Source: a virus
Length of the DNA stretch: 27,714 nucleotides
Strand: one strand, 5' to 3'
IMG/VR virus record: IMGVR_UViG_3300019776_000568
Span: 1 to 27,714 of that record
This document shows positions 3,907-5,529 of the stretch, in pieces. A model generated the notes under the pieces. The model searched no databases. It worked only from the letters and a program-made list of their open reading frames with translations, and was not told the DNA's origin. A program made the position numbers and the translations under genes. Numbering within the stretch: the stretch's first letter is position 1; each line of letters starts with the position of its first letter.

Positions 3907-4050
3907 TCATAGTGTCATAATTTTCACCGGCATTACCGGCAGTTCCCGTTCAAGTTCGTTGCGCAGTGCGCGGTCCATCGACGCTTCCTTTTGGTCGCGG
4001 TCCAAATCGCAATTGGCCATGATGGCCAGGAGTTGGTCGGTGATGGTCAT
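3907..4050 (-). CDS. Very small protein, function unknown
   Basis: Protein of 47 residues, acidic and helical, beginning MTITDQLLAIM and rich in charged residues (DLDRDQKEASMDRALRNELE). The ATG at 4050 overlaps the nuclease gene's TGA as ATGA, the genome's standard coupling, which argues for a real gene despite its size. A longer frame upstream overlaps the nuclease and is not used. It is the last gene of the leftward early/recombination operon and ends 23 bases from the convergent HTH gene. Confidence 0.6.
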   Translation of the reverse strand: MTITDQLLAIMANCDLDRDQKEASMDRALRNELERELPVMPVKIMTL

Positions 4051-4478
4051 GTGATCGCCTCCAGCAGCATCTCGACCGTGAGCCGCGAGCGCAGGCCCGA
4101 CGGCGTAACGCGGAACACGCGCCAACCGGCTAACGCTGCGGCGTTGTATTTCTCCATGTCTTTTTGGAAACCGGCGCCGGACGTGTGCCGCCCGCCCGTC
4201 CAGATGCCGCCCTCGACTTCGAGCGCGACGCGGGACTGCAAAAAGGCATAGTCAAAACGCCACTTGCGCGTCGTATGGAACCGATGCTCGCGCACCGGAG
4301 CAGGCAGACCCGCAGCCACGAAAAACGAAGTCGCATCCGGCGTCTCGCGCTTCGTGCGGACGACCTTCTTCGGCTCGCTCACCTCGATCTTGACCGTCTT
4401 CGGCCGCGGCGTCGCGTGCAGTTGTGCGGTTACTTGCGCCTGGTGCGTTTTGGATAAATCGGAAAGTGCGATTCTCAT
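4047..4478 (-). CDS. PD-(D/E)XK-like endonuclease (Vsr/DUF559-type fold)
   Basis: Protein of 143 residues. The N-terminal 50 residues are basic and probably disordered. The C-terminal half reads as a compact restriction-endonuclease fold: KWRFDYAF with the first Asp, ALEVEGGIW with the Glu-x-Glu, FQKDMEKYNAA with a conserved Lys/Glu, and GWRVFRVTP as the last strand. Similar proteins in other phages are annotated as hypothetical or VSR/DUF559-like nucleases. The ATG at 4478 overlaps the methyltransferase stop as ATGA, so nuclease and methylase are coupled. It might be a Vsr-like mismatch nuclease, a resolvase, or a restriction partner; the fold assignment is fair, the role is not settled. Confidence 0.75.
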   Translation of the reverse strand: MRIALSDLSKTHQAQVTAQLHATPRPKTVKIEVSEPKKVVRTKRETPDATSFFVAAGLPAPVREHRFHTTRKWRFDYAFLQSRVALEVEGGIWTGGRHTSGAGFQKDMEKYNAAALAGWRVFRVTPSGLRSRLTVEMLLEAIT

Positions 4479-5521
4479 GTTAGCAGGCGTCCGGCGAGGA
4501 CGCGAAAAGCTCGTTCTGCGGCGGCTGGGACGACTCCGTTGCCGAGGAGTCGGAGTTCGTCAGTGCGATTGTCACCGGAGACGCACAGCTCGGCATAACC
4601 CAGCCGACCGGCAGACCCATCAGCGTCTCGACCCAGCGCGGGTTGAGTTTGCCCGATGCTGATAAAGGTTGTTTCACCAGCAAAACTTGCGCCCTCAAAT
4701 CCGGATTGTGCCTCAACCTCTCCGATGGACAATCCCCGCGCTCGCTGGCCCTCGGAGTCCCCCAAATCGTCGGATTTGTTGCCAACCACTCTGGGCGGCT
4801 CCCATTCGTGCTGGGGTTGGCCGGGGCGACTGGGCCAAACCGCATCCGCTTGGTCAGTGAATCCTGAGACTCCAAGCCAGTTATTTTGTCCCCCTCGGAT
4901 GCCTGCGGTGTGGGCCACATCGCCACTGCATTCGGTAGCGTGTCCGCTGGGTGTCCCTTGCGCTCCTGCCGGCCCGATCCCGAAACTCCCTTCACATCCC
5001 GACTCGTTGCAGTGGGCCAAGATGAACACCCGCTTGCGCTGGTGCGGGGCGCCGACTTCAGCCGCACTGAATATTCCCCACGTTGCTGTGTAACCGAGTC
5101 CGCCCAAGTCTGCGATGACTTGTTCAAGGCCGAGGCTGATGTGTCCCTCGACGTTTTCGAAAAAGCAGACTCGGGGTCGCATGGCCAAAATTCCGTCTGC
5201 GATCCAAGGCCAGAGGTGACGGGGGTCGTCTTTACCGAGTCGCTTTCCGGCTGAGCTGAAAGGCTGACACGGGTAACCACCAGAGAGGATGTCCACGCAT
5301 CCGTGAAACTTTCCCCAAGGGAAGGTTTTAAGATTCGTCCAGACAGGTGCGACGTCCAACTGTCCCGCTTCCATTTTTGCGACCAGGTTCGCACAGGCGA
5401 AGGCTTCGATCTCAGCAAAAGCGACTGTGCGCAGACCTGGGACTGCTCTTCGGAGTCCGAGATCAATGCCGCCGTACCCAGCGCAGAGGCTGACGTGTGT
5501 AATTGTTTCGGGAGTATCCAT
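4475..5521 (-). CDS. dcm: C5-cytosine DNA methyltransferase
   Basis: Protein of 348 residues with the canonical C5-methyltransferase motifs: motif I SLCAGYGGIDLGL (11-23, AdoMet site), motif IV GGYPCQPFS (81-89, nucleophile C85), motif VI ENVEG (122-126), motif VIII QRKRVF (161-166) and a final LGNGVVPAAAERAF (326-339) as motif X. The region from about 170 to 310 is the target-recognition part and has repeated LAH/VAH/LGD-type phrases. Phage copies usually protect DNA from host restriction. The ATG at 5521 lies four bases past the upstream stop; the stop overlaps the nuclease start as ATGA. The same DNA is also fully open in a second minus-strand frame (4480-5529). Confidence 0.93.
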   Translation of the reverse strand: MDTPETITHVSLCAGYGGIDLGLRRAVPGLRTVAFAEIEAFACANLVAKMEAGQLDVAPVWTNLKTFPWGKFHGCVDILSGGYPCQPFSSAGKRLGKDDPRHLWPWIADGILAMRPRVCFFENVEGHISLGLEQVIADLGGLGYTATWGIFSAAEVGAPHQRKRVFILAHCNESGCEGSFGIGPAGAQGTPSGHATECSGDVAHTAGIRGGQNNWLGVSGFTDQADAVWPSRPGQPQHEWEPPRVVGNKSDDLGDSEGQRARGLSIGEVEAQSGFEGASFAGETTFISIGQTQPALGRDADGSAGRLGYAELCVSGDNRTDELRLLGNGVVPAAAERAFRVLAGRLLT

Positions 5522-5529
5522 GTGCTCAT
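4480..5529 (-). CDS. Full-length alternative-frame ORF inside the methyltransferase gene
   Basis: A second minus-strand frame is open for 349 codons over nearly all of dcm. Its ATG at 5529 overlaps the previous gene's TGA as ATGA, and its TAA ends one base before the next gene's ATG, so both ends are positioned like a proper gene. The product is Ser/Thr-rich and carries repeated phrases WPTATSRD (171-178), WPTPQASE (205-212) and WGTPRASE (256-263), then LNPRWVETLMGLPVGW (295-310). From memory, phage and metagenome databases hold hypothetical proteins with WPTP repeats and an LNPxWVEWLMGxPxGW ending. It may be a real overlapping gene, or a shadow kept open by constraint on dcm; I cannot decide without a codon-level analysis. 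Confidence 0.45.
   Translation of the reverse strand: MSTWILPKQLHTSASALGTAALISDSEEQSQVCAQSLLLRSKPSPVRTWSQKWKRDSWTSHLSGRILKPSLGESFTDAWTSSLVVTRVSLSAQPESDSVKTTPVTSGLGSQTEFWPCDPESAFSKTSRDTSASALNKSSQTWADSVTQQRGEYSVRLKSAPRTSASGCSSWPTATSRDVKGVSGSGRQERKGHPADTLPNAVAMWPTPQASEGDKITGLESQDSLTKRMRFGPVAPANPSTNGSRPEWLATNPTIWGTPRASERGDCPSERLRHNPDLRAQVLLVKQPLSASGKLNPRWVETLMGLPVGWVMPSCASPVTIALTNSDSSATESSQPPQNELFASSPDAC

Follow-up and report, generated by a model that had tools for sequence, protein, structure and literature searches.

Long overlaps between genes on the same strand are rare and hard to prove. Among the known two-chain methyltransferases, the gene for the small chain of M.EcoHK31I lies inside the gene for the large chain, in another frame. 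The small polypeptide of this enzyme carries motif IX alone and the large one carries motifs I-VIII and X (PMC3404938), and the predicted TRD has been placed in the large subunit (PMC3404938). In M.AquI, the second chain holds both motif IX and motif X (PMC3404938). The stretch of viral DNA analyzed here (27,714 nucleotides, hereafter the window) carries on its minus strand a dcm gene, whose product we call alpha, and a +1 frame, beta, which overlaps it fully. We put at roughly 0.85 the probability that this locus encodes one C5-cytosine DNA methyltransferase in the form of two polypeptides from overlapping frames, a reading that draws on sequence comparisons. An earlier note on the same DNA had singled out the second frame and had offered three readings of it: a true overlapping gene, an expression-coupled regulator of the methylase, or a shadow of dcm.

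The two frames and their predicted products

The features of the locus on which the analysis turns are as follows.

4475-5521, minus strand: alpha, the C5-cytosine DNA methyltransferase chain in the dcm frame, 348 aa, with motifs I-VIII and X
4480-5529, minus strand: beta, +1-frame gene in full overlap with alpha, 349 aa, proposed second methyltransferase subunit
5519-5529, minus strand: paired starts, with the beta ATG at 5529 and the alpha ATG at 5521
4475-4482, minus strand: stop region, with the beta TAA (4480-4482), one base, and the alpha stop, which forms an ATGA junction with the start of the next gene
5261-5281, minus strand: catalytic motif IV of alpha, GGYPCQP, with P84, C85 and Q86 invariant in the alpha alignment A3
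4787-4837, minus strand: alpha segment WPSRPGQPQHEWEPPRV, alpha aa 229-245, A3 consensus
4496-4567, minus strand: motif X of alpha, RTDELRLLGNGVVPAAAERAFRVL, alpha aa 319-342
4750-5019, minus strand: WxTP/WPTA repeats of beta (5005-5019, 4903-4917 and 4750-4764), proposed target-recognition part
4600-4653, minus strand: motif IX of beta, GKLNPRWVETLMGLPVGW, beta aa 293-310, with in-frame counterparts in the methylases of phages Moonbeam and SchottB

The minus-strand frame described in the earlier note is present, running for 349 codons from 5529 to 4480 and lying +1 relative to dcm (5521-4475), and its ATG does overlap the upstream ORF at the stop of the latter (5526) as ATGA. About twenty other junctions of this kind had been claimed; we count 25 on the minus strand for ORFs of 60 codons or more, an upper figure that includes some occurring by chance. 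The gap between the beta and dcm ATGs, given as four bases, is in fact five (ATGAGCACATG), and the beta TAA stands, as described, one base ahead of the start codon of the following gene (ATG at 4478), which itself overlaps the dcm stop as ATGA on the minus strand. Among the roughly 247 homologous loci in which start pairs were counted, 137 have an overlapping ATGTG and 41 a pair of the ATGACATG type. The gene that follows dcm (4047-4478, minus strand) is assigned to phrog_503, of unknown function, and by eye resembles a small nuclease of the PD-(D/E)XK type; the flanks of the other loci showed no homologue of it, which gives no linkage to the methylase.

Alpha has what characterizes a C5-cytosine DNA methyltransferase, namely motifs I-VIII, including PCQ and ENV, plus motif X. 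It matches PF00145 over aa 8-176 (E 1.3e-32) and phrog_363 over its full length (E 4.7e-57), and the invariant columns across alignment A3 are PCQ, ENV and GN. The AlphaFold2 model of alpha is confident mainly for residues 1-175 and 319-347 and disordered between them, and its best Foldseek matches are M.HhaI and M.HaeIII. No motif IX is visible in alpha, which reads QTQPALGRDADGSAGRLG at the corresponding position; the match to the motif IX HMM falls in the +1 ORF. The WPSRPGQPQHEWEPPRV segment is kept in the alpha frame and is positioned between beta repeats, and related segments form the C-terminus of alpha in five loci that combine an early alpha stop with motif X in beta.

Three repeats of the WPTP/WGTP type had been ascribed to beta; there are indeed three, but the first is a WPTA (beta aa 171), followed by WPTP (205) and WGTP (256). 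The likeness of its LNPRWVETLMGLPVGW ending to phage proteins, mentioned in the earlier note, was borne out by phrog_1008 ("DNA methyltransferase"), which matches the window beta with an E-value of 1.3e-17 and all 61 of the 61 aligned beta proteins. Sequence searches of beta against Pfam, NCBIfam and PDB returned no useful match, and AlphaFold2 gave it a mean pLDDT of 55.2 and no confident fold. With hhalign, beta residues 170-311 align to residues 212-329 of the single-frame Moonbeam methylase (probability 96%, E 4.9e-9), and the alignment of alpha with Moonbeam covers the catalytic part only; motif IX of Moonbeam can in turn be aligned to M.HhaI residues 272-291, at a level that is not statistically significant. 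By sequence, the C-terminal half of beta is demonstrably homologous to the recognition and motif IX part of single-frame phage methylases.

Openness of the second frame and selection on its protein

Taken alone, the window locus is only suggestive. Synonymous shuffles of its dcm gene give a mean of 3.3 stops in the +1 frame over the whole gene, synonymous shuffles of alpha up to motif IX give a mean of 2.3, with a P for none of about 0.04, and no +1 run in the other tested genes of the window exceeds 209 codons. The open frame is mildly unusual on this showing (P about 0.04-0.07), and it is the homologues that decide. Searches with the alpha protein alone yielded 80 viral loci (L001-L080), in all 80 of which the +1 frame remains open up to its final portion and the +2 frame holds 6-31 stops; the beta start lies beside the alpha start in nearly all of them, where the start is present. 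Between the alpha start and motif IX, the 63 loci with less than 50% alpha identity hold 44 +1 stops against 315 expected, with 948 against 985 expected for the +2 control in the same loci. The first 165 codons, counted in 26 viral loci, hold a single +1 stop against 98 expected. Across a spread sample of further phage dcm genes, those lacking this motif IX mostly have about as many +1 stops as expected, e.g., 14 against 14.2 and 15 against 14.1.

An HMM was built from the +1 frames of relatives with less than 45% alpha identity, the profile loci having been found through motif IX, and was applied to the window and the L001-L080 loci, which had not been found in this way, against a null of 100 shuffles that leave the dcm protein unchanged. 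The C-terminal half of beta scores 67.5 bits against a shuffle mean of 2.9 (z 16.6; +2 control, z 5.5) and the N-terminal half 170.5 against 113.9 for the shuffles (z 5.2; +2 control, z 3.1), and because the +2 control also beats the shuffles (z about 3-5), not all of this excess can be credited to beta; the excess of the N-terminal half over the control is modest. Codon rhythm was measured on homologous pairs found through alpha only. The ratio of third- to first-position substitutions in the alpha frame is 1.81 in the catalytic part, 1.07 in the recognition region and 0.09 at motif IX (bootstrap 0.04-0.14); a ratio of 2.10 was obtained for flanking genes in an earlier test that included loci found via the motif IX pattern. 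The DNA at motif IX evolves as beta, in the codon rhythm of beta, and the N-terminal half of beta evolves mainly as alpha, stop-free and weakly constrained. Selection on the second frame at the protein level, beyond that on the first, is strong for the C-terminal half and weak for the N-terminal half. The first of the three readings offered in the earlier note, a true overlapping gene, is strongly supported by the openness of the frame, the HMM-shuffle comparison and the codon rhythm, and the sequence analyses confirm beta as a selected protein-coding gene in real overlap with dcm.

Natural variants and the reading of the locus

A +1 overprint is present in 78 of the 80 viral loci found through alpha, in 139 of 151 viral loci found through beta, and in 73 of 80 loci from bacterial and archaeal genomes, figures that are counts and not frequencies because motif IX was a selection criterion for the genome and beta-found sets. 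By their record titles, the genome loci come from Alphaproteobacteria, Bacillota, Verrucomicrobia, Bacteroidetes, Chloroflexi, Planctomycetes and an archaeal bin, and prophages or wrongly binned contigs may account for some of them. Among 14 phage dcm records chosen as a spread sample, three held overprinted genes, two were split into consecutive chains, one was a single-frame gene with this motif IX and eight lacked it. In Synechococcus phage Ssp-JY39 (L082, 2504-3619), beta is annotated as a hypothetical protein and the overlapping alpha is left unannotated; in a plasmid of Sphingomonas paeninsulae (L092, 1908-2999), beta is listed as hypothetical in the PLSDB table, which is incomplete, and alpha is absent from it.

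The relatives distribute the same parts in several ways. In Mycobacterium phage Moonbeam gp69 and Gordonia phage SchottB gp4, a single chain bears motifs I-VIII followed by a recognition stretch, which in Moonbeam has PTP-type repeats, and by motifs IX and X; what beta encodes, motif IX and the WxTP repeats, corresponds to the part that these methylases have between motifs VIII and X. Other actinophage relatives have two consecutive chains (Float294 gp62/61, Keziacharles14 gp82/81 and Maverick gp78/77). Mycobacterium phage GigiOuiOui (L088, 1489-2573) has two annotated "DNA methylase" genes, with motif VIII in a third frame, which look as though frame changes had broken up a single-frame gene of the Moonbeam kind. 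Motif X is in alpha in 291 overprinted loci and in beta in 12, made up of seven overprinted loci (two of which fetch the same contig) and five with an early alpha stop. A quickly built tree of the catalytic domain requires about 11 changes in the frame of motif X, at least seven of them forced by well-supported branches; recombination at the 3' end could be the source of some of them, and one locus counted on this tree, L077, may represent an assembly or natural frameshift. In five of the loci with motif X in beta (L057, L063, L067, L076 and L079), the C-terminus of alpha is a cysteine-rich tail, CxxC...C.RC..HY..C.C.GPN, that may bind zinc.

We infer that beta is translated and forms a heterodimer with alpha, with an activity and a biological role along the following lines. 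Alpha would fold into a catalytic domain that binds AdoMet (motifs I-VIII), with motif X closing it, and beta would bring motif IX and the WxTP repeats, which together with the short alpha segment could form a small DNA-recognition domain. The adjacent starts, coupled to the upstream gene, would cause both chains to be made together and in similar amounts, and the assembled chains would act as one methylase protecting or marking phage DNA. The N-terminal half of beta is probably a passenger that places the beta start next to that of alpha.

The alternative that survives best, at a low probability, is programmed +1 frameshifting, by which ribosomes started on alpha would enter the beta frame after motif VIII and produce one chain with motif IX. 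The middle region of alpha is predicted to be disordered, a switch would connect motifs I-VIII with IX, and where motif X is in beta (12 loci) one switch would yield a complete enzyme; in the 291 loci with motif X in alpha, however, a second, backward switch would be required. Frameshifting is further disfavored because it would not need the first 165 codons of beta to be stop-free, and it sits poorly with a separate beta start beside that of alpha in most loci and with the use of two consecutive genes by the actinophage relatives. Slightly less probable still is that beta, though a real protein, has a different function, as a regulator of the methylase or of host defence, outside the enzyme. 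Its length and lack of a Pfam match would suit such a protein, but its conserved core is homologous to the recognition and motif IX stretch that methylases carry in frame, alpha itself shows no motif IX, and several lineages have motif X relocated to beta, as expected for the parts of one enzyme. The expression-coupled regulator proposed in the earlier note finds no support in a protein that bears motif IX and a target-recognition-like stretch; beta is more likely a subunit than a regulator because single-frame relatives hold both elements in one chain. The shadow reading, in which the amino-acid and codon composition of dcm would leave the +1 frame open and likeness to other +1 frames would be inherited from dcm, accommodates the mildly unusual window locus but retains next to no probability, being refuted as a full explanation by the stop counts among homologues, the beta-frame codon rhythm at motif IX, the HMM score of the C-terminal half far above dcm-preserving shuffles, and the presence of the beta stretch in frame in single-frame methylases, with phage dcm genes that lack this motif IX also having +1 stops near expectation.

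Comparison with recorded genes and described enzymes

Genes comparable to beta are already on record in two database entries, one for Paenibacillus phage Shelly gp56 ("g55 internal gene") and one for an overlapping ORF of Escherichia phage fTaEco01 ("putative Mte8-like protein", a label also used in PMC5582158). Like beta, both are +1 ORFs that lie over a phage dcm and carry motif IX, but they are shorter than the window beta, with starts inside the catalytic region, and their records either give no function or name a methyltransferase-like protein. The phrog_1008 label is likewise silent on whether its members are products of overlapping frames or subunits, and the last part of its profile is motif X, which the window carries in the alpha frame. 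Annotation pipelines usually keep one frame, so that many phage and bacterial methyltransferases would lack their second subunit in databases and in expression constructs. With somewhat better than even confidence, we regard the two-chain methylase as a very widespread and mostly unannotated family, an enzyme encoded in two near-fully overlapping frames of the same strand with touching starts, whose division of motifs has shifted in evolution. Hundreds of homologues of the overprinted methylase are open to evolutionary work, and the changes in the frame of motif X amount to natural experiments on dividing an enzyme.

Searches of E. coli genomes with the pair from Salmonella phage S9-5 returned four that contain close relatives of S9-5, and no sequence recognizable as M.EcoHK31I, and the literature searched, which lacked most subscription papers, contains no report of this overprinted phage methylase family. 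Among two-chain enzymes, the M.AquI type has a layout that is matched by the actinophage relatives of the window's family; the window itself differs in having motif X in alpha and genes that overlap fully, and motif X is in beta in 12 other loci. Its division of motifs fits that of M.EcoHK31I (YGGCCR), in which the large chain holds I-VIII as well as X and the small one IX, a likeness of motif layout. The differences from M.EcoHK31I are that the window beta, at 349 aa, spans practically all of alpha and starts beside it, and that the WxTP repeats, which probably belong to the recognition region, sit in beta. Relative to M.EcoHK31I, the near-complete overprint with touching starts, the breadth of the distribution and the switching of motif X between frames are new in the literature searched.
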